DNA of 64,000 bases from Eubacteriales bacterium (GTDB taxonomy: Bacteria > Bacillota > Clostridia > Oscillospirales > Oscillospiraceae), in NCBI GenBank assembly GCA_030531505.1, contig JAUNNH010000011.1, positions 1 through 64,000 on the forward strand, written 5' to 3'. A model generated the notes under the pieces. It was given only the letters and a program-made list of their open reading frames with translations. It did no database searches and was not told the origin of the DNA. Made by a program: the position numbers and the translations under genes. This document shows, piece by piece, positions 40,178 through 51,569 of the stretch (the stretch's first letter is position 1; each line of letters begins with the position of its first letter).

Positions 40178-40320
40178 CTGTATTTTCCTCACTATTATCA
40201 TTTTGAAATGAACATTGGTTTTCCCGGTATGTGCTGTTCTGTCTGTTGCTCAGAGGAACGCTCAGTACCACAGAGACGAGGCCTCCGACAATCGACGAGT
40301 ACGTCCGGTATCAATCACGG

Positions 40321-40479
40321 GAATATCTATTTGTAACAGGTGGTGCCGGCTTTATCGGCGGAAACCTCATTCATTACTATCTGAAAGCCTATCCGGAAGA
40401 TAGGGTCGCGTGTATCGACAAACTCACATACGCGGGGAATCTGAGTATATTGCAACCAGTCATGGATTATCTTATATAG
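40321..40479 (+). pseudogene. rfbB: Remnant of dTDP-glucose 4,6-dehydratase (N-terminal about 50 codons)
   Basis: The translation EYLFVTGGAGFIGGNLIHYY followed by KAYPEDRVACIDKLTYAGNL and SILQPVMD matches the NAD-binding N-terminus of RfbB. It then ends at TAG (40477) after DYLI, where a full protein would go on for about 280 residues. It has no own ATG in the proper place and no ribosome-binding site. A decayed piece of a polysaccharide locus. Confidence 0.85.
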
Positions 40480-40740
40480 GCCCACTATTCATATATTGCA
40501 GATGAAAATGGAAGTGTTAAGGATGCATTTCTTAATTCCTTTATGCTCGGGACAGTTCAAACACCGGTCGTTCTGAACTCGGATAATGGGTGGGAAATTG
40601 GCTGGGATTATCGTTTCAGTTGTAAAAGCGTTGACACTACATCTTGGCTGGAATATAATAAATTCAATTCCGCAGCAGCGCTGAAACCGCATATGTACGA
40701 CGGATATGGGCCCCCGGAGAATGCCAAACAGAGAGAAGGA
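40480..40740 (+). other. AT-richer remnant between the rfbB fragment and the ligase gene
   Basis: The same frame stays open from the TAG at 40477 into the ligase gene (AHYSYIADENGSVKDAFLNS...) but the translation resembles no family I know and differs in base composition from its surroundings. Most likely decayed coding DNA from an earlier polysaccharide cluster; it might also form an N-terminal extension of the ligase, which I consider unlikely. Confidence 0.5.
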
Positions 40741-40746
40741 ATGTCC

Positions 40747-42180
40747 ATGCTAAATCAACTCCATCGAAACATACAGGAGCACCGTAGGGAACTGTATGCG
40801 CTGACGCTGCTCGGCATATTGCTTCTGTTCATGCTGGAACCGCTCAACAGCTACCTTGCCTGGTCGCTGTTGTATGGCTATGGACTCTATCTCTTCGTGG
40901 TGCTTGCTGCGTTCTATCTGTATTTCCATGGTTTGCGCGACGGCTGGGAGATTCGACTGGCGGTCGCGTTTGTGCTCTGGCACGCGCTGAGCAGGATCCT
41001 TCTCGGAGATGTGGTCCTCCAGAAAGAGGGCTATCTGGTCATGAAGGGACCGCTGATGGTCTGTATGTTATCGGTCGGCTTAGTTTTAAGCCGGAAACAG
41101 CGGCGTCGTTTTCTCCACATCTTCGGCGGTGCGGCGGCCATATTCTTCACGCTGCTCGGCCTGATGGACCTTTACAGCTATGTGACTCGGAAGGCCCTTG
41201 TCTACGCACGCACGGATGTCTTCACCGGTATCGTACACGGCTTCCGGATGCAGATCCTCGGCTATCATCCCAACACTGTCGGGTTCTGGTACCTGCTGAG
41301 CTCCGCACTGCTCGTTTATCTGTTTCTCGACTGCCGCCGCAAGGCCTGGCGGATCCCGCTTGCGGTCATGTTGCTTATTCATTACCTCACCCTGGCCACC
41401 ACATTCAGCCGCAATTCAGAGCTGAACTTCAGCGCCTGCGCCGGCCTGCTGGCCGCACTGCTGCTGGAGAAGAAACTGCGTGTACGCAAGAAGACCGTGC
41501 GAGCCGCGCTGCTTGTGCTGACAGCGCTTTTGGCAGGGTTCCTGTGCTTCAAGGGCTTCGGCTTCGGCACGGGGATGCTCGGGAAAATACATGAGAGTTT
41601 AAAACATCCTACAGTTACAGCAACTGCGGCAGAGCCTACTACTGCGGAGAGGAGACCGGACCATGCGACGCCCGTTATGCTCAGCTTTCCGGTCCGTACG
41701 CTGTCAGCTTCTGATACGGAGATCCCCTTCCAGGATCCCCGCAGCCTGACGAACGACTCGCAGCGTTTCCTGATTTACAAGACTGTCCCTGAGATCTTTC
41801 GGCAAGAGCCAATGCGGCTTCTGCGGGGGTGCTTCTTTGACGAGCGGCTGAGCATCAGCAACCCGCTGCTGCCGGAGAATAAGACCATGCTGCATGATTC
41901 CTGGCTGGAGATCTTGAACTATATGGGCATTCCGGGGCTGCTCCTGTTCTTGGCCTTCACGGTACTTGTCCTGAAAGATTGTTTTAAACTGTATTTCAGT
42001 GCTGTCCCTGAGCATACGACAGCGATCAAATCCCTGGTCCTGCCCGTGCTGGCTGGCTTCAGCTTCAGTATCCTCGAATCCTTCCTCTGGTTCCGTACCG
42101 ATTTTATGACGCTGAGCTGTTATCTCTTCATTGGTTTCGTGAATGCAGAAGTGCGTGAGAGTTGTGCGGCGCGCTGCTGA
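40747..42180 (+). CDS. O-antigen ligase-like polytopic membrane protein
   Basis: A 477-residue protein with 10-12 membrane spans and one large extracytoplasmic region near residues 290-410, the layout of Wzy/WaaL O-antigen ligase-polymerases (around TLATTFSRNSELNFSACAGLLAAL and LLPENKTMLHDSWLEILNYMGIPGLLLFL, where the HDSWLEIL segment matches the usual HNxxLxxL motif). The frame is open 68 codons further upstream, but the ATG at 40747 has AAGGA six bases before it. It probably transfers or polymerises a surface glycan. It stands alone beside the rfbB remnant. Confidence 0.78.
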   Translation: MLNQLHRNIQEHRRELYALTLLGILLLFMLEPLNSYLAWSLLYGYGLYLFVVLAAFYLYFHGLRDGWEIRLAVAFVLWHALSRILLGDVVLQKEGYLVMKGPLMVCMLSVGLVLSRKQRRRFLHIFGGAAAIFFTLLGLMDLYSYVTRKALVYARTDVFTGIVHGFRMQILGYHPNTVGFWYLLSSALLVYLFLDCRRKAWRIPLAVMLLIHYLTLATTFSRNSELNFSACAGLLAALLLEKKLRVRKKTVRAALLVLTALLAGFLCFKGFGFGTGMLGKIHESLKHPTVTATAAEPTTAERRPDHATPVMLSFPVRTLSASDTEIPFQDPRSLTNDSQRFLIYKTVPEIFRQEPMRLLRGCFFDERLSISNPLLPENKTMLHDSWLEILNYMGIPGLLLFLAFTVLVLKDCFKLYFSAVPEHTTAIKSLVLPVLAGFSFSILESFLWFRTDFMTLSCYLFIGFVNAEVRESCAARC

Positions 42181-42294: not shown

Positions 42295-42335
42295 AAAAAG
42301 GATCGTTGTAAATCTTCACAGTTTTACAACGATCC
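42295..42335 (-). terminator. Terminator of the Dlt-like operon
   Basis: A 13-bp perfect stem (42300-42312 with 42323-42335), 10-nt loop; on the minus strand a TTTTT run (plus 42299-42295) follows directly. It lies 80 bp after the last gene of the operon. Confidence 0.85.
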
Positions 42336-42414
42336 TGGACTTTATTCTTTTATTCGCACCAGTTTTTACTTGGCAGATGCAGACGCTTTGGCGGTTGCCA
42401 TTTTAGTATTCTAA

Positions 42415-42960
42415 TCAATCGTCTTCGGTTACAGCGGTGTACTGGATCGCGGTGATCTCCCCGTTGCTGTCCGCTTTGATCATGAGCAGCACCGGGCCAT
42501 ACTGGAAGCTGTACACGCCGCGGTTCTCCTCGACCGTCAGCTCCTCCTCTTCGATCTCGTCCATGAGCTTCAGCGCATCGTTAATGTCCATGCCGATCGT
42601 CACGCCCTGGGGCGTCTTGATCGTATCGTCCGCGATGACGATGCCGGTGATATAGAAGACACCGTCGATCTCGTTCGTGGTGAGCTCAATCCCGTCGTAG
42701 TAATAGATGTAGTCGTCACCCTGGTAGGCGCAGCTCGCGGAGACGAAGAGGTCATCCGCTTCGCCGAGCTCTTCCATGATGGGCTCGGCCTCGTCGAGGA
42801 TGCCGAAGTCGACATCGTGATACGAGAAACCGAGAGGCCCATAGACGGTCTCTTCCTCTTCTTCGGCCTCGGTCTCGGCTTCGTCTGCCGCGAAAGCCGT
42901 GCCGCAGAAGCAGAGCGTCAGAAGGGTGAAGGCAACAAGCAGTGCAAGGATCTTTTTCAT
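42415..42960 (-). CDS. Secreted acidic protein, last gene of the Dlt-like operon
   Basis: A 181-residue exported protein: signal peptide MKKILALLVAFTLLTLCFCGTAFA, then an acidic linker (DEAETEAEEEEETVYG) and a domain of about 130 residues rich in Asp, Glu and Tyr (DDYIYYYDGIELTTNEIDGVFYITGIVIADD, later GVTIGMDINDALKLMDEIEEEEL). The fold looks like a small alpha/beta repeat of the kind seen in clostridial lipoproteins, but I do not recognise the family. It follows the SGNH gene by 16 bp. A role near the modified polymer is only suggested by position. Confidence 0.75.
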   Translation of the reverse strand: MKKILALLVAFTLLTLCFCGTAFAADEAETEAEEEEETVYGPLGFSYHDVDFGILDEAEPIMEELGEADDLFVSASCAYQGDDYIYYYDGIELTTNEIDGVFYITGIVIADDTIKTPQGVTIGMDINDALKLMDEIEEEELTVEENRGVYSFQYGPVLLMIKADSNGEITAIQYTAVTEDD

Positions 42961-42976
42961 TTTCTTTCTCCTTTCC

Positions 42977-44065
42977 TCAGGTCCGGTCGTTCCCAAGCGT
43001 CCAGCTCTTCAGATATCCGTATTCCTCGAGCTCCTGGAGCTGGGCGGCCAGGAGAGCGTCATACTGCGCGCATTTTGCATCCCAGTCGGCGGAGAGGACG
43101 GCGTCGTCCCGGTGATCCGTCAGACCGTAGCGTTCGCTGAGCAGGCGGGCGAAGTAGGCCGAGGCCTTTTCCGCGCCGTAGATGTTCAGATGGAGTCCCG
43201 CATCGTAGGTGTCGGTCGTGAAGTCGATCCCGATCTCCTCCTGCAGCGGGAGGAAGTTGATGTAATCCAGGCCGTGCTCGGCGGCGTAGGAGCTGATCTG
43301 CTCCTCCCATTCGTCGTACCAGTGAGGCCAGATGCTGGGGGATTTGATCAACACGAGCCGTGCGCCGTGCTGTTCGCACAGCGCCTGGATCTTTCCCAGA
43401 TAGTCCCAGCAGCTCTGACCGATATCGGTGTCGGCCAGGATGGGGACAGAGGGGAGGCGCTTCATGGGCTTGACATCCGCACGCATCAGATAACCGGCGA
43501 CGGTGACCTTGTCGCGTTTGAAGAGGTAGTCCCAGTCCTCCTGCGTCAGCTCCTGCCAGCGGGAGTGGTAGCGGAGAAGCGGGATCAGATAGCTGAGCCA
43601 CTCTTCGTCCTCGGTCATGGAGGCGCGGATGGCGCCGAGCTTGGAGGAGGAGAGACGCATGCCGTCAAGCGCCATGCGGTTGTATGCCTCGCTTTGCGGC
43701 TCGCTGTACTTCATCGCCTGCACATTGTACACGACGATCTTCGGACTCTCGTAGCGGAAGGCGTCCTCCAGCAGGTAGTAAGACTGCCAGATGAGCTGCT
43801 GGGCGGTGCCGCGGATGTAACTGGTGATCCCGGCCTCCCGCCACATGGTCACGGGGGAGAAGTTCTCATAGACCTCGCAGTCGCCGATAAAGATCACGTC
43901 ATGCGGCGTCTTCTCCTCGTAGTATTCCGCCGTCATGGCCCCCTCCAGCACGCCGGACATGTACTTGGGCTGTGTGAGTCGACCCAGGAACCAGACGCAG
44001 GCTGCGAGCACCAGCAGGCAGAGGAGGAGCGGCAGCCAGGCTTTGATTTTCTGCTTTGTCGTCAT
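42977..44065 (-). CDS. SGNH/DltD-like membrane-anchored protein
   Basis: A 362-residue protein with one N-terminal membrane span (about 8-28) and an extracytoplasmic SGNH-hydrolase-like domain. The block I motif reads FIGDCEVYENFSP, so Cys63 stands where GDSL enzymes have Ser; the C-terminal catalytic Asp-His pair appears as YDAGLHLN. It takes the DltD place, after an MBOAT gene 8 bp upstream. In Dlt systems DltD handles the acyl group outside the membrane. A Cys nucleophile could form a thioester intermediate; this is inference. Confidence 0.82.
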   Translation of the reverse strand: MTTKQKIKAWLPLLLCLLVLAACVWFLGRLTQPKYMSGVLEGAMTAEYYEEKTPHDVIFIGDCEVYENFSPVTMWREAGITSYIRGTAQQLIWQSYYLLEDAFRYESPKIVVYNVQAMKYSEPQSEAYNRMALDGMRLSSSKLGAIRASMTEDEEWLSYLIPLLRYHSRWQELTQEDWDYLFKRDKVTVAGYLMRADVKPMKRLPSVPILADTDIGQSCWDYLGKIQALCEQHGARLVLIKSPSIWPHWYDEWEEQISSYAAEHGLDYINFLPLQEEIGIDFTTDTYDAGLHLNIYGAEKASAYFARLLSERYGLTDHRDDAVLSADWDAKCAQYDALLAAQLQELEEYGYLKSWTLGNDRT

Positions 44066-44073
44066 GGCTGTAC

Positions 44074-45654
44074 CTAAAACTGATTATAGATGAATTGAGA
44101 AGCGTCGTAGCCCACACCGTAAGCGCCGAAGCAGAGCACAAGCAGAGCGAGGACAGGGAAAAGCACATAGGGGAGAGCGGGCTTCTTCCAGATGAGCTCA
44201 CGCACGCTCCCATGCTTTTCCTGCAGGACGCTGACCGCGAACATGAGCAGAACGCCGAGACCGGCGATACGGTAATCCCAGATACTGAGACCAAGCTCAA
44301 GCAGCGGTCCGGAGAAAGCTTCCCGCCATTTGCCGGCGGTAAAGACAGACCCGAAGGCCCGGAAAGAGACCGGCACATTCCGATAGCAGTCCAGCATGCG
44401 CAGGGAGCACATGATGAAGAAGGTGCGCAGGATCTCAAACACGCGGTAGCCGAAGCTGTCCGTGAGGCGCGGGAACTTCTCCCGGAAGCGGGTGGAGAGA
44501 GGCTTGAACTCCTCCGCGATCAGGATGATCACGGCGTTCAGCAGACCCCAGACGACGAAGTTCCAGGCGGCGCCGTGCCAGAGACCGGTCAGAAACCAGG
44601 TGACCAGCGTCGAGAGATAGACCGGCATCTTCCGGCCGAAGCCGTCCCAGCGGGTGCGGATCTTCTTGGAGAGCTTCATCAGCTTCGGCGCGGCGGACAT
44701 CGGGAAGAAGATGTAATCCTTGAACCAGGTGCCCATGGAGATATGCCAGCGCCGCCAGTATTCCGCAATATTGCGGGAGAAGTAGGGGCGGATGAAGTTT
44801 TCCTTGACCTCGATCCCGAGGACTTGGGCGACGCCGATGGTGATATCGATGCCGCCGGTAAAGTCGGCGTAAAGCTCGGCCGCATAGAAGAGCGCCCCGA
44901 TCAGGGCAAAGGCGCCGTTATACTGGTCGGGAGCGCCGCAGAGAGCCTTGACCGCCGGAAGCAGCCGGTCCGCAATGACGAGCTTCTTGAAGTAGCCCCA
45001 GAGGATGCGCTGCATACCGAAGCTGAAGCCCTTGAAGTCGAAGGTGTGCTCGGCGTACAGGGTCTCCTTCAGATCGCCGAAGCGGGAGATGGGGCCCTGG
45101 ACAAGCAGAGGGAAGAAGGACGTGAAGAGCGCGACGCGCAGGAGATTGTTCTCCGCCTCGACCTTCTCCCAGTAGACGTCGATCAGATAGCTCACCGTCT
45201 GGAAGGTATAGAAGGAGATGCCCATCGGGAGCACCCAATCTACCCCGGCCAGCTCCGCGGAGAACAGACTGTTGACATTGGAAATAAGGAAGTTCGTATA
45301 CTTCAGCGCTGCCAGGATACCGAGGTCGATCAGCAGGGAGAGCGTCAGCACGAGCTTGCGGTAATTCTCCCGCTTCTTCTTCCATTCCTTACGCTCCTCC
45401 CGCGGAAGAGCTTTGCCCTCCGGACTCTTGAGGAAGCTGCGCTGCTCCGCGAAGGAGCGGCCCATCAGCATGCCGGCAAGCCAGGAGACGAGCACGGTCA
45501 CACCGAGGAAAACGAGCCCCTTCCACCCGGCGCAAGCGTAGAACACCACGTCGGCGGCCAACAGCAGCAGCCATTGAAAGCGCCTCGGTATCAGGTAATA
45601 GACAAGAAACAGCAGCGCCAGAAAGGCGATGAAGCGATAGGATGTAAACAGCAC
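44074..45654 (-). CDS. MBOAT-family O-acyltransferase (DltB-like)
   Basis: A 526-residue polytopic membrane acyltransferase. MBOAT landmarks are visible: LPMGISFYTFQTVSYLIDVYW, the invariant-region RPYFSRNIAEYWRRWHISMGTWFKDYIFFP with its conserved His, and the second catalytic His in FLTGLWHGAAWNFVVWG. It would receive an acyl or aminoacyl group from the carrier protein and pass it across the membrane, as DltB or AlgI do. It lies 3 bp after the carrier-protein gene and 8 bp before the SGNH gene. About 130 residues longer than a minimal DltB. Confidence 0.93.
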   Translation of the reverse strand: MLFTSYRFIAFLALLFLVYYLIPRRFQWLLLLAADVVFYACAGWKGLVFLGVTVLVSWLAGMLMGRSFAEQRSFLKSPEGKALPREERKEWKKKRENYRKLVLTLSLLIDLGILAALKYTNFLISNVNSLFSAELAGVDWVLPMGISFYTFQTVSYLIDVYWEKVEAENNLLRVALFTSFFPLLVQGPISRFGDLKETLYAEHTFDFKGFSFGMQRILWGYFKKLVIADRLLPAVKALCGAPDQYNGAFALIGALFYAAELYADFTGGIDITIGVAQVLGIEVKENFIRPYFSRNIAEYWRRWHISMGTWFKDYIFFPMSAAPKLMKLSKKIRTRWDGFGRKMPVYLSTLVTWFLTGLWHGAAWNFVVWGLLNAVIILIAEEFKPLSTRFREKFPRLTDSFGYRVFEILRTFFIMCSLRMLDCYRNVPVSFRAFGSVFTAGKWREAFSGPLLELGLSIWDYRIAGLGVLLMFAVSVLQEKHGSVRELIWKKPALPYVLFPVLALLVLCFGAYGVGYDASQFIYNQF

Positions 45655-45657
45655 GGC

Positions 45658-45885
45658 TTACTCGTCCAGCAGGCGCTCGACCATCTCATGCATAGCGGCG
45701 GCGGAATTGAAGTTCTCGTTGCGGATCTCGCGGGCGGGGATCGTGATGTCAAAGCGGTCGCTCAGCTCCGCGATGATGGTAACCAGATCCAGGGAAGACA
45801 GGATGCCGTCATCCACCAGCGTCTCGCAGCTGGACACGTCCGCATCCAGATTCAGCTCTTCCAGGATTTCAAGAATTTCGTCCAT
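45658..45885 (-). CDS. Acyl/D-amino-acyl carrier protein (DltC-like)
   Basis: A 75-residue carrier protein with four predicted helices. The phosphopantetheine attachment serine is Ser31 in GILSSLDLV (the usual DSL reads SSL). Its short length and the Ile/Leu-rich helix II suit a DltC-type carrier. The start lies 17 bp inside the end of the ligase gene and the stop is 3 bp before the MBOAT gene, so the three products are made together. Confidence 0.92.
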   Translation of the reverse strand: MDEILEILEELNLDADVSSCETLVDDGILSSLDLVTIIAELSDRFDITIPAREIRNENFNSAAAMHEMVERLLDE

Positions 45886-47398
45886 TTTTTATACTCTCCT
45901 CGTATTTCTTTTTCAGGGCGATGCGGTCAATCTTGGCGTTTGCCAGAAGCGGAATGGTATCGAGACGGAGGATCTTGTTGGGGAGCATATGCCGCGGCAG
46001 CTCGCCGCGCATATAGCTGCGCACCGCTTTTTCCTCCGCAGAACCCATATAGAACAGGATCAGCTTGTGCCGGGCGCTATCCCACAGACAGCAGGAACTC
46101 TCCAGCCCGTCGAGACGGTCGGCGCAGGCCTCAATCTCGCCGAGCTCGATGCGGTGCCCCATGTTCTTGATCTGGTTGTCCTTGCGTGAGACGAACACCA
46201 GTTCGCCGCGCTCGTTCACGAAGCCGAGATCGCCGGTACGATAGATGATCTCCGGCAGGAGTTTGTTGAGCGGGTTCTGTGTAAAGGCGGCGGAGGTGCG
46301 CTCGGGATCGGCATAATAGCCGAGGGTGACGCAGGTGCCGCGGATGCAGATCTCACCCTGTTCGCCGGGAGCGGCTTCGGTATCGTCGTCGGTCAGCAGG
46401 ATATAGTCGGTATTATCGAAGGGATGGCCGACAGGGACGGTTTCGGTATCGTCAAACGCATGGTCAACTTCGTAGTAAAAGGAGATGCCGGTGCATTCCG
46501 TGGGGCCGTAGAAGTTTATAAAGCGCGCTCCGGGACAGGCCTCCTGCCAGAGCCGGAGCTGCTTGACAGGGAAGACCTCGCTGCTGAAGCAGACCGTGCG
46601 GATGCCGGCAGGCTTCACATCCTCAAAGGCGCCGAAGCCGGAGATCATGGTCAGCGCGGAGGCCACCCAGCAGAGGGTGTTTACGTGATGGCGGTTCAAA
46701 TAATCCAGAGCGGCGAGCGGGGACATGAACAGATTCTGTGGCATGAGCCAGACTTCGGAGCCGCAGCGGATGACCGACAGGAGCTCCTTCAGACAGGCGT
46801 CGACAAACAGAGGAACCTGCATGGCAAAGACGCTTGTCTCGTCCGCGCCGATGACCGGGCAGATTGCCTCGGCGTAATCGATCACAGAGCGGTGGCAGGC
46901 GGTGACGCCCTTGGGCATACCGGTCGAACCGGAGGTGAAGACGATGTAAATGGGGTCGATGTCGAGCGCGCGGCGGCGGACATAGCCAAGAAGAGATTCG
47001 TCGATGCTTCCGGCAAAGAGCTCGTCCACGCTCAGCATCTGCTCGCCGTACCCAAGCTCATGCAGCAACTCCTCGCTGCTCTCGTCATAGATGATCACGC
47101 GCGCGTTCAGCTTCTCCAGGATCATCTGGATGCGCTGCTGCGGCATACCGATGTCGACCGGAATATAGTAGCACCCGGCATAGATCACAGAGAAAAAAGC
47201 GCAGATCGTCTTCGGGCACTTTTTCATAAAGACAGCGACCGGCTCGTGGTAAAGCCCGCGGCGAAGCAGCTCGCTGCCGCCGGTACGTGACAGCGCGAGG
47301 AATTCGCCGAAGCTCAGGCAGCCCTCCTCATCGCATAAGGCTGGACGGTCCGGAAAGCGGGGAGCTGTGTTTTCGAGGTATTCAAGAATGTTTTTCAT
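45869..47398 (-). CDS. Amino acid-adenylating ligase (DltA-like)
   Basis: A 509-residue adenylation-domain enzyme that should activate an amino acid with ATP and load it on the neighbouring carrier. Visible motifs: A3 TSGSTGMPKG (155-164), the DltA-like substrate region MQVPLFVDACLKEL with Asp200 where DltA binds the amino group, A5 NFYGPTECTG, A8 RKDNQIKNMGHRIELGEIE, and the catalytic A10 lysine K489 in AKIDR. The pocket residues around PLFVDACLKELL differ from DltA (PFSFDLSVMDLY), so the substrate may not be D-alanine. The upstream racemase makes D-aspartate or another D-amino acid a candidate. Confidence 0.88.
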   Translation of the reverse strand: MKNILEYLENTAPRFPDRPALCDEEGCLSFGEFLALSRTGGSELLRRGLYHEPVAVFMKKCPKTICAFFSVIYAGCYYIPVDIGMPQQRIQMILEKLNARVIIYDESSEELLHELGYGEQMLSVDELFAGSIDESLLGYVRRRALDIDPIYIVFTSGSTGMPKGVTACHRSVIDYAEAICPVIGADETSVFAMQVPLFVDACLKELLSVIRCGSEVWLMPQNLFMSPLAALDYLNRHHVNTLCWVASALTMISGFGAFEDVKPAGIRTVCFSSEVFPVKQLRLWQEACPGARFINFYGPTECTGISFYYEVDHAFDDTETVPVGHPFDNTDYILLTDDDTEAAPGEQGEICIRGTCVTLGYYADPERTSAAFTQNPLNKLLPEIIYRTGDLGFVNERGELVFVSRKDNQIKNMGHRIELGEIEACADRLDGLESSCCLWDSARHKLILFYMGSAEEKAVRSYMRGELPRHMLPNKILRLDTIPLLANAKIDRIALKKKYEESIKNGRNS

Positions 47399-47437
47399 GT
47401 GGTATTCTCCCGGAAAGGCATGATGCAGCGCACAGCA

Positions 47438-49096
47438 TCAGAACATCTTGAAGGATTTCGTTGCAACCTCGGGGAAGAGAGACTGGTCAAACTTCCAATA
47501 CGCTCTTCCCTCACCGTTGTGGAGCTGGCTGTTCGTGCGCATGAAGCAGGTCCCGTAAATATGGTTCGGGCAGGCGTCGTAATGATACCAGCCGGTCCCG
47601 ATGTTGACCAGACACCAGTAGTGGCGCGTTATACCGTCGATGCGCTCCACACTCATGACTTCCACGCCGTCGATTTTGTTGAGCAGAAGGAACGCGGCAG
47701 AGTAGTAAGTAAAGCAGTCGCCCTTGAACTCGGTAAGACCACGATAGGCCTCGCCCTTCCAGTCAGTCTTGTCTGAATCGCCGGTGTAGCGGATCTTATA
47801 GCGGCAGTAATCATAGATGGCACGGATCTTCTTCGCGACCGACATGTCGTCCTTCAGGATATCCTGCAGGATGCTCTCGGCCAGCTCGTCGAGCTGCTCA
47901 TCGGTGACGGAAGGCTCGCGGAACGTGATCTCCACCGTCACGGAAGACGAATTGCCGTCGCGGTCGGTGGCGGTGTAGGTGACGGGATAGGTGCCGACCT
48001 TGCGATATTTGACAGCGGATTTGTCAACGGAGACCTCACAGGCGGGATCCAGATTGTCCGTGACAATAACACCCTTCATATAGGCTACCGCGTCTCCAAC
48101 GTAATGGAAAGCGGCCAGATTCACATTGACCTTGGGAGGAATGTCGTCCTGCTTGAAAGGGCAGGTGACCTTGGCGACCGTGCGATTATACGAGGCGTCG
48201 GTAACGGCGATCTTTACTTCGCGCTCGCCAGGGGTCTCCCAGTCCGGCTCCGAGAGATACTCAATGGTGACGTCCTGCTGGTCGGAGACGGATGTGATGA
48301 ACTCTTCCGGCTCCCGCGGATAGCCGAGATAGCAGATCTGCTCGGCGGCCTTGACCTTGGGACGCGTGGTGTCGCGGATGTGGACACCGATGTAGAGGAG
48401 CGTATCGCCTTTCTTGAGATCAAAGGCGGCGGCGCCCTCTTCCGTGACCTTCAACTGCTGGATGCTGGGCTTGTAGCCGTGCATCGTACCAAGCTTTTCG
48501 CGCAGCTGCAGCCCGGTGTAAGAACGGACTTCATATTCCAGATTGATCACACGGTCGCAGACATAGAGTTTTGTCTTGATGATCCGCTGGTTGCCGTTGG
48601 GATCCTCCGCGATAAGGGTGATGGGGTACTCACCGAGTTTGGAGGTATCCGGCTTCTCCTCAAAACGGAAAGACACGCTGTTTTCATCCTCATAGTGAAT
48701 GACAAAGGTCGAGGGTGTCACCACAGAACCGAGTGTGACGGCTGCCGCAGCGTATTTTACCGAAGGAGGCGTAGTGTCAGTGGACTCTGCAGGGGGCGCC
48801 TCTTCCGGTTTCGCCTCTTCCTCTTCAGCGGCAGCCGGGATGGACGTATCCGCATCCGCTGCCGGATCCTCAACAGGCTCCGCTTCCTCAACAGCTGCGA
48901 CAGTAGCTTCTTCGGCGGAATCTTCCTCAGGCAGAGTCTCTGCTTCGGAGGACTCGGCTGCGAAGGCGGAACTGGTCTTTTCCCTGGGGAAGAACACCAT
49001 GCCGGCCAGCAAAGAGAAAACAAGAACGATCGAAAGAACAGCGAGAGCCGTGCTGCGCAGGGAGAGGGCAGCGCGGGTATGATCAAAATGGGACAT
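47438..49096 (-). CDS. Membrane-anchored transglutaminase-like protein with Ig-like modules
   Basis: A 552-residue protein. A membrane span (about 15-35) is followed by a Glu/Ala/Pro-rich linker (about 45-110), bacterial Ig/DUF5011-like modules (about 115-400, with the GTYPVTYTATDRDGNSS signature) and a C-terminal transglutaminase-like domain with Cys461 (GDCFTYYSA), His492 (ITRHYWCLV) and Asp507 (WYHYDAC), a complete catalytic triad. It faces outward and may be a protease, crosslinking enzyme or amidase. It starts 14 bp inside the racemase gene and precedes the ligase by 39 bp. Confidence 0.85.
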   Translation of the reverse strand: MSHFDHTRAALSLRSTALAVLSIVLVFSLLAGMVFFPREKTSSAFAAESSEAETLPEEDSAEEATVAAVEEAEPVEDPAADADTSIPAAAEEEEAKPEEAPPAESTDTTPPSVKYAAAAVTLGSVVTPSTFVIHYEDENSVSFRFEEKPDTSKLGEYPITLIAEDPNGNQRIIKTKLYVCDRVINLEYEVRSYTGLQLREKLGTMHGYKPSIQQLKVTEEGAAAFDLKKGDTLLYIGVHIRDTTRPKVKAAEQICYLGYPREPEEFITSVSDQQDVTIEYLSEPDWETPGEREVKIAVTDASYNRTVAKVTCPFKQDDIPPKVNVNLAAFHYVGDAVAYMKGVIVTDNLDPACEVSVDKSAVKYRKVGTYPVTYTATDRDGNSSSVTVEITFREPSVTDEQLDELAESILQDILKDDMSVAKKIRAIYDYCRYKIRYTGDSDKTDWKGEAYRGLTEFKGDCFTYYSAAFLLLNKIDGVEVMSVERIDGITRHYWCLVNIGTGWYHYDACPNHIYGTCFMRTNSQLHNGEGRAYWKFDQSLFPEVATKSFKMF

Positions 49097-49823
49097 GGAC
49101 AGCCTCCGTTAACACTGGTTCATTGCTTGTGCTGCGATAGCCGAGAGCGCGGATCGCCTCCCGGGCAAGGATGCTGCTGGGATCAAGAAAAACAAAATCC
49201 TGACAGTCGGAAAAAACAAGAGGGAGCTCGGTACAGCCGAGGACAAAGCATTCCGCACCGCGCTTTGCCATATCGTCCAGCGTGGAGCTGAGCGCTTCGG
49301 GACGCCCCGGCCTGCCCGCTTTGATTTCTTCATAGATCAGATGCATGACCAGTCGCTGGCCTTCCTTGTCGGGATGGATGAGAGTCAGCCCCTCGGCCTG
49401 AAAAGCACGATCATATACACCGGAATGCAGTGTCCCGTCGACTGCCAAAAGACCGGCGCAGCGAAAACCACGCCTTGACGCCTCGCGGGCAGTCAGCTCG
49501 ATCATATTCAGCAAAGGCACGGAGCAGGCCGCTTCCAGCTTGTCAAAAAAATAATGCGCGGCGTTGCAGGCCACGACCAGCAGATCCGCGCCTGCGGCTT
49601 CGAGCCGCCGCGCCGAATCGATCAGATAGGGCAGGGGACGTTCGTCCCCGGCCAGGATCGAGGCGGTCCGATCGGGGATCTGCGTGTTCCCGTCGATAAG
49701 CACGTGGATGTGCTCCTGATCGCAGGACGCATCCGTCTGCTCGACCACCTTCTTGTAGAAGTCCACGGTGGCCATGGGGCCAACGCCGCCAATGACACCG
49801 AGGACCTTTTTCCCGTTTATCAT
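49083..49823 (-). CDS. Aspartate/glutamate racemase family protein
   Basis: A cofactor-independent racemase of 246 residues. The family start GVIGGVGPMATVDFY and the two catalytic cysteines are present: C86 in VVACNAAH and C197 in LGCTELP. This pattern fits the RacX/YgeA/aspartate racemase group rather than MurI. It is the first gene of the minus-strand operon that continues with the transglutaminase and the Dlt-like genes. It would supply a D-amino acid in the cytoplasm, where the ligase works. Substrate is undetermined (Asp, Glu or a broader range as in YgeA). Confidence 0.88.
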   Translation of the reverse strand: MINGKKVLGVIGGVGPMATVDFYKKVVEQTDASCDQEHIHVLIDGNTQIPDRTASILAGDERPLPYLIDSARRLEAAGADLLVVACNAAHYFFDKLEAACSVPLLNMIELTAREASRRGFRCAGLLAVDGTLHSGVYDRAFQAEGLTLIHPDKEGQRLVMHLIYEEIKAGRPGRPEALSSTLDDMAKRGAECFVLGCTELPLVFSDCQDFVFLDPSSILAREAIRALGYRSTSNEPVLTEAVHVPF

Positions 49824-49881: not shown

Positions 49882-49910
49882 TATATATGCACAATATACA
49901 TGCTTTGTAA
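49882..49910 (-). promoter_or_regulatory. Probable promoter of the racemase/Dlt-like operon
   Basis: On the minus strand TTACAA (49910-49905), 17 bp, TATATA (49887-49882), 59 bp before the racemase start. The region is very AT-rich, so alternative -10 hexamers exist. Confidence 0.5.
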
Positions 49911-49995
49911 TAATACCACGGCAAATAGACAAATTCAAGCACAATATGCAAAAAGACAAATGGTTACAAAAGCCTGATGCAACGAGAATTTCGGG

Positions 49996-50024: not shown

Positions 50025-50066
50025 GAAAGCAGCCCATTGACCGCAAATAATCAAGGAGGGATATCC

Positions 50067-51569
50067 ATGAACAAAGAGATCGGCAGAAGAGATTTCCTGA
50101 AGGCAGCTGTGGCAGGCGCTGCCGGGCTTGCGGCGGCCGGCGCGCTTGGCGGCGCTGCTTTTGCAGACGAGGGGCAGAGCGCGGCGCCCCGCTTCGAGGG
50201 CAAGCCGAAGTTTGCCGGGATCGGGAGCGTGCGGGAAGTGACGGATGACATCTTCTATGTTGGTGTCAGCGACCGGCGCATCCAGCTCTTCGAAAACGTG
50301 TACCCGATCCCGCGCGGTGTCGCATACAATTCCTATGTGATCCTGGATGAAAAGACGGCCCTGGTCGATACCGTCGATCGCTCTGTGACGGGTCAGTTTT
50401 TCGAGAACCTGACGGCTGTGCTGGACGGCCGCGATCTTGACTACCTCATCGTCAACCACATGGAGCCCGACCACAGTTCCGCCATTTCCGAGGTGCTGGT
50501 CCGCTATCCGAATGCCAAGGTCGTCTGCACCATGGCGGCCTCGCTGATCCTCAATCAGTTTTTCGCCTGCGACATCTCGGACCGCGGCATTTTCGTCAGG
50601 GAGGGCGATACCCTGAGCCTTGGCAAGCATACGCTTGCTTTCGTTATGGCGCCTATGGTCCACTGGCCGGAGGTCATGATGAGCTACGACGTTGCCACCG
50701 GTGTGCTGTTTTCCGCTGACGCCTTCGGCAGCTTCGGGGCACTGAACGGCAACCTCTTCGCCGACGAGGTTGATTTTGAGAAGGACTGGCTGCCCGATGC
50801 GCGGCGCTACTACTGCAACATTGTCGGCAAATACGGCGATCAGGTACAGGCGGTTCTGGCCAAGGCGGCGACGGTCGATATCCGTATGCTGTGTCCGACG
50901 CACGGCCCTGTCTGGCGCGAGAACCTCGGCTGGATCCTCGAAAAGTATTCTCTCTGGAGCAGCTACACACCCGAGGAGCAGGCGGTCATGGTGGTGTACG
51001 GTTCCGTTTACGGCGGCACCGAGAGCGCGGCTAACGCAGTCGCGGCGATGATCTCTCAGAAGGGCGTCGCGGACGTGGCGGTGTATGACGTGTCGAAGAC
51101 GCATGTCAGTGAGCTGATCGGCGAGGCCTTCCGCTGCAGCCATATCGTGCTGGCCTCCATCACCTACAACATGGGTATCTTCACCCCGATGAAGAATTTC
51201 CTGCTGGATTTAGAGGCGCATAACCTCCAGAAAAGGACCTTCGCTCTGATCGAGAACGGAAGCTGGTCACCGGCCTCCGGCAAGCTCATGAAGGAGATCC
51301 TGGATCGGCTCGCCTCTGTCTCCTATGCGGGCGATATCGTGACGTTCCTGTCCTCACCGGATGCGGACGACCACGATGCCCTCGCCGCGCTGGCCGACGC
51401 GGTTGCAGCTTCCGTTCTGGGCGGTGAGGCGGTTGAAGAAGCGGAGGAGACCACCGTTGCACGCTGGGTCTGCGACGTCTGCGGCTATGTCTATGAGGGC
51501 GATGCACTGCCCGAGGACTTCAAATGCCCGCTCTGCGGCGCCGGTCCCGACCATTTTGCTCAGGCCTGA
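50067..51569 (+). CDS. Flavodiiron protein with C-terminal rubredoxin and N-terminal Tat signal
   Basis: A 500-residue protein. Residues 1-33 are a twin-arginine signal (GRRDFLKAAVAGAAG, cleavage near AFA). The mature part has the metallo-beta-lactamase diiron domain with H131, E133, D135 and H136 (HMEPDH) plus VHWPEV, SADAF and THGPVW ligands, a flavodoxin domain (about 310-440, VVYGSVYGGTESAANAV), and a rubredoxin with Cys 469, 472, 487 and 490. Such enzymes reduce O2 or NO, normally in the cytoplasm. Export as a folded flavoprotein would need Tat, which fits the signal. Shine-Dalgarno AAGGAGGG supports the start. Confidence 0.9.
   Translation: MNKEIGRRDFLKAAVAGAAGLAAAGALGGAAFADEGQSAAPRFEGKPKFAGIGSVREVTDDIFYVGVSDRRIQLFENVYPIPRGVAYNSYVILDEKTALVDTVDRSVTGQFFENLTAVLDGRDLDYLIVNHMEPDHSSAISEVLVRYPNAKVVCTMAASLILNQFFACDISDRGIFVREGDTLSLGKHTLAFVMAPMVHWPEVMMSYDVATGVLFSADAFGSFGALNGNLFADEVDFEKDWLPDARRYYCNIVGKYGDQVQAVLAKAATVDIRMLCPTHGPVWRENLGWILEKYSLWSSYTPEEQAVMVVYGSVYGGTESAANAVAAMISQKGVADVAVYDVSKTHVSELIGEAFRCSHIVLASITYNMGIFTPMKNFLLDLEAHNLQKRTFALIENGSWSPASGKLMKEILDRLASVSYAGDIVTFLSSPDADDHDALAALADAVAASVLGGEAVEEAEETTVARWVCDVCGYVYEGDALPEDFKCPLCGAGPDHFAQA

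Follow-up and report, generated by a model that had tools for sequence, protein, structure and literature searches.

A racemase-linked cassette of ligase, carrier, MBOAT and cysteine-bearing SGNH protein in Oscillospiraceae: a candidate system for envelope aminoacylation with an acidic D-amino acid

Introduction

Among the systems in which an MBOAT works with a partner SGNH protein, the closest described are, on the one hand, DltABCD/X, which acts in the D-alanylation of teichoic acid, and, on the other hand, PatA-PatB, which acts in the O-acetylation of peptidoglycan, and other MBOAT-SGNH pairs. The former is fed by an adenylating ligase and a carrier protein, while the latter pathways do without a carrier protein (PMC12148441), evidently since acyl-CoA is their donor. 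According to the same source, the tyrosine of an FXYXXF motif bears the acyl group in PatA and in DltX, and a serine nucleophile is described for the SGNH transferase family in a second one (PMC9487903). The present work concerns a seven-gene cassette found in a stretch of 64,000 nucleotides, hereafter the window (positions 1 to 64,000 of the forward strand of contig JAUNNH010000011.1, assembly GCA_030531505.1), from a Eubacteriales bacterium of the family Oscillospiraceae, class Clostridia; the source assembly amounts to 2.24 Mb in 42 contigs and is 74% complete. Seven open reading frames (ORFs) of the minus strand, running from 49823 to 42415 with intergenic gaps of at most 39 bases, encode in this order a racemase, a transglutaminase-like protein, an adenylating ligase, a carrier protein, an MBOAT, an SGNH protein and a secreted lipoprotein-like protein.

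With DltABCD/X, this cassette shares the logic of ligase, carrier, MBOAT and SGNH protein as well as the shuttle tyrosine of FXYXXF, but it differs in that the shuttle is fused to the MBOAT, the SGNH protein has a cysteine, the ligase pocket contains a lysine, and a racemase, a transglutaminase-like protein and a cysteine-bearing lipoprotein are added. With PatA-PatB and other MBOAT-SGNH pairs, it shares an MBOAT with the conserved histidine and a C-terminal FXYXXF, together with a partner of predicted SGNH fold, but it differs by its carrier and ligase genes and, again, by the SGNH cysteine. The cassette is a real and widely conserved variant of MBOAT-SGNH envelope acylation, of which no description was found in the open-licence literature of PubMed Central (PMC). 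From sequence comparison, it may be an MBOAT-SGNH system that is fed by a carrier and aminoacylates the envelope with an acidic D-amino acid, a reading we hold with about as much belief as doubt.

Conservation of the cassette

Of 300 family genomes, 95 contain the ligase or more distant adenylating proteins (expect value, E, <=1e-40), and 92 loci, i.e., the hits at E <= about 1e-80 plus one weaker, were mapped with profiles of the window proteins (genomes and loci are cited below by our working numbers, G and L). A ligase tree, built from 108 rows by a quick method with fragments excluded, places the window ligase in one well-supported clade of 28 rows, the members of which are 44 to 66% identical to it. 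Of the mapped loci, 23 lie in this clade, corresponding to 22 genomes besides the window's, one of them spread across two contigs, and 69 lie outside. Across the clade, the order transglutaminase-like protein, racemase where present, ligase, carrier, MBOAT, SGNH protein and lipoprotein is kept with local changes; the carrier was not detected at the locus in L051, and the contig stops at the ligase in L054. Many assemblies are fragmented, and as such all counts of genes not found nearby include contig ends (e.g., L042, L043, L045, L050, and L104).

At the level of the class, the profile of the SGNH protein was run against 391 genomes (E <=1e-60) and matched 49 of them, the window's included, from 24 genera. 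Out of the other 48, 20 were examined, chosen for family spread and SGNH match and not for the racemase; a carrier occurs in 18 of these loci, a ligase in 16, and a cysteine at the SGNH nucleophile position in all 20. Considering these last figures together with the 49 matching genomes, the cassette type is common in the class and, since it recurs in other genera and families, the gene set is beyond chance. A complete cassette is also present in L129, on a contig labelled Candidatus Gastranaerophilales, the ligase of which groups with Clostridia ligases; misbinning is possible there.

The extracellular part of the cassette can stand alone. In G109 and G264 (both of the window's genus) and at a second locus of G241, the transglutaminase-like protein, MBOAT, cysteine-bearing SGNH protein and lipoprotein are found together without ligase, carrier or racemase; G026 exhibits MBOAT, cysteine-bearing SGNH protein and lipoprotein in the short stretch covered, L350 resembles these sets, and in L342 a glycosyltransferase gene precedes the SGNH gene, with no MBOAT match in the stretch. 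In all these cases, the racemase is missing along with the carrier. Non-Dlt MBOAT-SGNH pairs likewise use acyl-CoA without a carrier, from which the window cassette differs, and the extracellular modules without ligase and carrier presumably run on acyl-CoA as well. In L342, six transglutaminase-like genes surround the cysteine-bearing SGNH gene, along with two cysteine lipoproteins and a family 2 glycosyltransferase.

These sets were absent from the initial annotation made from the window's letters, as were the fused shuttle motif, the replacement of serine by cysteine in the SGNH protein and the lipoprotein cysteine; the residues which it had named, namely C86/C197 of the racemase, C461/H492/D507 of the transglutaminase-like protein, K489 of the ligase and Ser31 of the carrier, all stand at the positions given.

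Racemase: identity and linkage

The window racemase scores 224 bits against TIGR00035 (cut-off 93), possesses the catalytic C86 and C197, and aligns with the aspartate racemase of P. horikoshii (1jfl) at 189.6 bits. Both cysteines and the equivalents of R48 and K164 of 1jfl, namely R52 and K168, are shared with that enzyme, from which the window racemase differs in sitting in an envelope cassette. The equivalents of C86, C197, R52, and K168 are kept in all 12 family racemases aligned (the window's included) and in all 14 of the linked ones at class level. In 1jfl, R48 and K164 bind the aspartate side chain; the retention of their equivalents is no more than suggestive of aspartate as substrate.

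That the racemase belongs to the cassette, as had been proposed from the window alone, is borne out by the comparison of relatives. Among 47 relatives that possess a ligase or a carrier, 29 have a racemase nearby (family genomes, 12 of 23, the window's included; named loci, three of six, i.e., L129, L131, and L134; class loci, 14 of 18), against 0 of the 69 loci of other ligase clades. Nine further family genomes among the 23 have an over-cut-off racemase on another contig, that of G121 at the contig start, so that 21 of the 23 ligase genomes contain one vs. 113 of the 277 others. Fisher tests give 2e-6 for co-occurrence and 4e-9 for linkage, values which are a guide only because related genomes are treated as independent; in the linkage comparison, moreover, the units are genomes for 12/23 and loci for 0/69. 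The comparative search for a racemase co-occurring with this set, which the initial annotation had put forward, thus found co-occurrence; homologous cassettes are not consistently without the racemase, yet a sizeable share of them is without a nearby copy, as weighed below.

The racemase gene has no fixed position: it can precede or follow the transglutaminase gene, lie upstream in divergent orientation, lie downstream, or stand several genes off (L038). At class level it occurs at the cassette in 14 of 20 loci; the two loci without carrier are also without racemase, and none was found in the five carrier-less loci with readable flanks (L289, L290, L291, L342, and L350). The stretches covered of L340 and L341 contain both racemase and carrier but yielded no ligase. 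In a racemase tree of 55 rows, where long branches were flagged by the tool, the linked state changes four times, at least three of these changes being forced by starred branches; because linked racemases are spread over several branches, the linkage would have arisen by several gains, or early and then been followed by losses. Taken together, the linkage provides strong evidence that the amino acid would be supplied by the racemase. One candidate, in L037, was dropped, as it reaches 32 bits to TIGR00035 and was taken as a glutamate racemase, the genome's racemase being on another contig.

Away from the cassette, an ATP-grasp-like text motif stands by 17 of 40 racemase loci and a MurE-like one by 8 of 40 (one MurE was checked). 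These racemases (L210, L213, L215, L216, and others in L225-L247) perhaps provide D-aspartate for peptidoglycan. The ATP-grasp-like neighbour was considered as a D-aspartate ligase and was not used as proof of D-aspartate, with no match in the PDB at E 0.001 and sub-cut-off scores in NCBIfam and Pfam.

Ligase, carrier and the comparison with Dlt

The ligase, with its catalytic lysine K489 in the alignment, scores 300.5 bits against TIGR01733, slightly under the cut-off of 317.4; a search of the window's own genome found no second close relative, the next match being at E 9e-9. At the ten pocket positions, it reads DAKSCSFGIK, and its clade mostly DAKSAGLGMK. The numbering is presumably that of GrsA, with Lys204 of the window ligase taken as position 239. 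The D, A, and K of the pocket are invariant in an alignment of 16 rows of the clade, and class-level ligases have K at the Lys204 position in 15 of 16 cases and R in the remaining one (L339, without nearby racemase), so that the charge is kept. Since the lysine is conserved, a side chain other than that of alanine is likely. The same D-A-K is found in domain A1 of surfactin synthesis, the pocket of which, DAKDLGVV, is assigned to Glu/Asp in PMC10548584. The carrier has its phosphopantetheine site at Ser31, and a serine is found there in all 27 clade carriers aligned.

Membership in Dlt was rejected on scores, as ligase, carrier and MBOAT all fall far under the Dlt cut-offs. The ligase, whose pocket had been noted from the start as unlike that of DltA, reaches 210.4 bits against TIGR01734 (cut-off 559.85) and is not a DltA; the MBOAT reaches 145.1 bits against DltB (TIGR04091, cut-off 375) and the carrier 23.4 bits against DltC (TIGR01688, cut-off 52.35), its best NCBIfam match being PRK05087 at 38.7 of 68 bits. 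The ligase also matches the exosortase-A-associated model TIGR03098, with 168 bits far under its cut-off of 592.

Several neighbour enzymes accompany the ligases of sister cassettes; they do not decide the substrate of the window clade. One such neighbour, a conserved gene with a product of some 390 aa, is present in L066, L075, L081, L082, L108, L109, L122, L123, and L128; scanned in L066, it corresponds to a pyridoxal-phosphate decarboxylase of the ornithine/diaminopimelate/arginine family (169 bits to the exosortase-A-associated TIGR03099, far under the cut-off of 478), which may decarboxylate a carrier-bound amino acid. In ten sister loci (L073 and, e.g., L067, L068, L080, and L092), the ligase is immediately followed by a gene for some 262 aa; in L073 it encodes a GNAT acetyltransferase, and the ligase pocket there, DLKSAGLVDK, is near the glutamate code DAKDLGVV given in PMC10548584. 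A gene of about 185 aa lies directly behind the ligase in L059, L060, and L061, that of L061 being an aminoacyl-tRNA editing (YbaK-type) domain. In L077, L083, L094, L099, and L105, two tandem ligases with differing pockets are preceded by a gene for some 1000 aa, with FG-GAP repeats in that of L094. In L098, two ligase-carrier pairs lie within a series of related genes that contain stretches such as LILYGMGDTGRRIA, alongside genes resembling, by eye, radical SAM enzymes.

MBOAT, SGNH protein and extracellular partners

The MBOAT scores 53 bits against PF03062 (cut-off 27), has its conserved His360 in LWHGAAW, and ends in FIYNQF, thereby matching the FXYXXF acyl-shuttle motif with Tyr523. All 27 clade MBOATs share the tail FIY[NT][QI]F, i.e., 25 FIYNQF, one FIYNIF and one FIYTQF. 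The shuttle is fused to the MBOAT, and no separate DltX gene was found in the cassette, the rest of the genome not having been searched, and with inter-ORF gaps this short there is no room for one. Carrier, ligase and fused FXYXXF tail thus occur together in the cassette and, as they do so in sister ligase clades too, the arrangement is wider than the window's cassette. Two further MBOATs of the window's genome end in NPFIYFRF and NPFIYFNF, and both adjoin secreted proteins with a DHHW-like stretch recognised by eye.

The SGNH protein and the secreted lipoprotein-like protein have zero Pfam or NCBIfam matches at E 0.01, the former hence no Pfam match to DltD. The SGNH protein is membrane-anchored, with Cys63 at the nucleophile position together with N114, D288, and H292. 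Its AlphaFold model (mean predicted local distance difference test, pLDDT, of 85.7; nine sequences as input) matches SGNH-fold structures including DltD and PatB; these Foldseek matches are modest, the best at E 4e-5 to designed scaffolds and DltD at 1.8e-4. In one alignment, the nucleophile position is a cysteine in 28 of 28 clade members and a serine in 36 of 36 outgroup members; N114 and H292 are invariant and D288 is nearly so among the cysteine-bearing proteins aligned. Among the 300 family genomes, 26 score at least 243 bits to the SGNH profile and the remaining matches at most 189; one locus from each of the 26 has the cysteine (26/26), all 23 ligase-bearing genomes fall within them, and the lower-scoring loci of G278, G046, G158, and G087 have serine. 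In the open-licence PMC literature, no paper was found on an SGNH acyltransferase with a cysteine nucleophile.

In the lipoprotein, Cys77, located in an S-C-A-like motif, is invariant in all 24 copies, the window's included; a lipobox-like pattern is seen in 23 of them, the exception being the window's. The equivalent of Cys77 is the sole cysteine besides that of the lipobox in L044, L054, L055, L056, and L134. In a second set, 17 of the 20 class loci supplied 18 copies, and all 18 have the cysteine; no copy was found in L336, L343, and L351. The predicted model (mean pLDDT 75.7; six sequences as input) resembles part of the CAP/SCP-type secreted proteins 4ifa/4h0a at E 1.2e-4, which gives no function. 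A longer upstream gene labelled as this secreted protein in L040 is actually a periplasmic-binding lipoprotein (Peripla_BP_2), and such labels were left unused, the profile for the secreted protein being made from short copies. Finally, the transglutaminase-like protein is secreted and membrane-anchored, exhibits immunoglobulin-like repeats, scores 29.3 bits against PF01841 (cut-off 23) and passes the cut-off of PF16403; its C461-H492-D507 triad is kept in aligned cassette copies.

Proposed mechanism and alternative explanations

In the proposed mechanism, (i) the racemase would produce an acidic D-amino acid, likeliest D-aspartate, (ii) the ligase would adenylate it and load it on the phosphopantetheine of Ser31 of the carrier, (iii) the MBOAT would transfer it across the membrane onto Tyr523 of its own FIYNQF tail, (iv) transfer from the tail would form a thioester on Cys63 of the SGNH protein, and (v) the SGNH protein would deliver the amino acid to an acceptor at the surface. 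The transglutaminase-like protein and the Cys77 lipoprotein would be standing extracellular partners. Transfer to the tyrosine and then to the SGNH protein is modelled on published systems of the same kind; the sequences lead us to infer the Cys63 thioester, the nature of substrate and acceptor, and what Cys77 and the transglutaminase-like protein do. An acidic side chain seems somewhat the better wager for the amino acid, and D-aspartate in particular could be the substrate at slightly less than even confidence.

Several observations weigh against this proposal. Of the 47 relatives that possess a ligase or a carrier, 18 have no racemase close by, some of these lying at contig ends, and G276 (94% complete) and G299 (78%) have no over-cut-off racemase in the genome. 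The window racemase also passes the CuyB cysteate-racemase model NF052483 (233 bits, cut-off 190); since a MurE-adjacent racemase passes it too (218.5 bits), the model is non-discriminating, the cysteate-racemase label was not accepted, and the type of racemase leaves the substrate unfixed. The pocket lysine is also present in ligases linked to acetyltransferases and decarboxylases, and as sister-clade ligases share it, the lysine alone does not indicate aspartate. Polymer-building genes, lastly, are absent from the cassette in the ORF map.

As regards the transglutaminase-like protein, it may not be a cross-linker and could instead trim or remove the modification, as esterases do in some dlt systems. 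Many bacterial transglutaminase-fold proteins are hydrolases, FmtA and DltE are reportedly such esterases linked to D-alanylation, and tandem transglutaminase-like copies exist in L048, L132, and L342. No finding speaks directly against trimming, as the gene stays with the SGNH and lipoprotein genes when ligase and carrier are gone, which fits either role; we regard it as a serious possibility that falls short of probable.

Rather unlikely, in our estimation, is a ligase that acts on the L form of an acidic amino acid, or on either enantiomer of glutamate or cysteate, with the racemase serving another pathway or the balance of pools. The relatives without nearby racemase, the CuyB score and the ATP-grasp-like and MurE-like neighbours of non-cassette racemases, perhaps pointing to peptidoglycan synthesis, can be read this way. 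Yet the presence of the racemase at most class loci, at varied positions and from several racemase branches, argues against it, as do L340 and L341, where racemase and carrier are retained without a ligase in the stretch.

Within the proposal of an acidic D-amino acid delivered by Cys63, a bolder extension, which we hold doubtful, is a thioester relay where the amino acid would pass from Tyr523 to Cys63 and on to Cys77 of the lipoprotein as extracellular carrier, Cys461 of the transglutaminase-like protein then making an amide on a surface amine. If true, this would be an amide-forming surface chemistry fed from the cytoplasm and independent of a glutamine donor; the organisms being anaerobes, free thiols could persist at their surface.

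It is very unlikely that Cys63 is non-nucleophilic and the SGNH protein catalytically dead or hydrolytic. SGNH transferases are described with serine in PMC12148441 and PMC9487903, and the block V spacing D288-x-x-x-H292 is one residue off that of several outgroup members; against this, Cys63 holds throughout the clade alignment, the 26 family genomes and the 20 class loci, and a dead site is not expected when Cys63, N114, and H292 are so conserved. The weakest explanation, an ordinary D-alanine dlt operon with an unrelated neighbouring racemase, finds some footing in the parts logic of DltA-C-B-D and in the top NCBIfam match of the carrier to a DltC model but is highly improbable given the sub-cut-off scores of ligase, carrier and MBOAT, the absence of a DltD Pfam match, the fused shuttle in place of DltX, Cys63 and the conserved pocket lysine.

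Should the reading of an envelope system for an acidic D-amino acid be true, envelope aminoacylation would extend past D-alanine and take in a charged D-amino acid of local make; it would also suggest that feeding by a carrier, as in Dlt, and a fused tail, as in Pat, can replace each other as designs and that a cysteine can serve in the SGNH step.

Locus layout and neighbouring genes

The features of the locus are collected in Table 1. The arrangement first noted, i.e., seven clustered minus-strand genes with overlaps or short gaps closed by a terminator, agrees with the ORF map and with the hairpin test, in which the stem is at -21.9 kcal/mol and 0 of 200 shuffles is equally stable. The gene of the secreted protein is likewise present, with a corrected start that most likely lies at the ATG listed. 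Five families match Pfam above cut-off, namely Asp_Glu_race, Transglut_core, AMP-binding, PP-binding, and MBOAT. Promoter-like sites in the region number nine for 5.0 expected (standard deviation 2.3), which is near chance.

Table 1. Features of the cassette and their positions in the window.
Feature	Position	Strand	Basis or remark
Racemase, 2-Cys Asp/Glu-type	49083..49823	-	TIGR00035; 1jfl alignment
Transglutaminase-like protein	47438..49096	-	14-base overlap with racemase; PF01841, PF16403
Adenylating ligase	45869..47398	-	39-base gap to transglutaminase-like gene; PF00501
Carrier protein	45658..45885	-	17-base overlap with ligase; PF00550
MBOAT acyltransferase	44074..45654	-	3-base gap to carrier; PF03062
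SGNH-fold protein	42977..44065	-	8-base gap to MBOAT; predicted model and alignments
Secreted lipoprotein-like protein	42415..42960	-	ATG 42960 behind GGAG; 16 bases after SGNH gene
Lys204 codon, ligase pocket	46787..46789	-	Alignment
C-terminal FIYNQF (Tyr523) of MBOAT	44077..44094	-	FXYXXF motif match
Cys63 codon, SGNH protein	43877..43879	-	G-D-C-E in place of G-x-S
Cys77 codon, lipoprotein	42730..42732	-	Alignment of relatives
Intrinsic terminator	42295..42336	-	Stem 42299-42336, z -5.5
Promoter-like site, weak, upstream of racemase	49910..49938	-	9/12 match, TG-extended

Beyond the terminator, a short ORF at 40231-40479 (+) resembles, on inspection by eye, the beginning of a nucleotide-sugar dehydratase, possibly a broken gene, and is followed downstream by an O-antigen-ligase-like gene at 40543-42180. 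On the other side, divergent from the racemase gene, 50037-51569 (+) encodes a flavorubredoxin-like protein, to which a rubredoxin-like domain is fused and which bears a signal-like stretch at its N-terminus.

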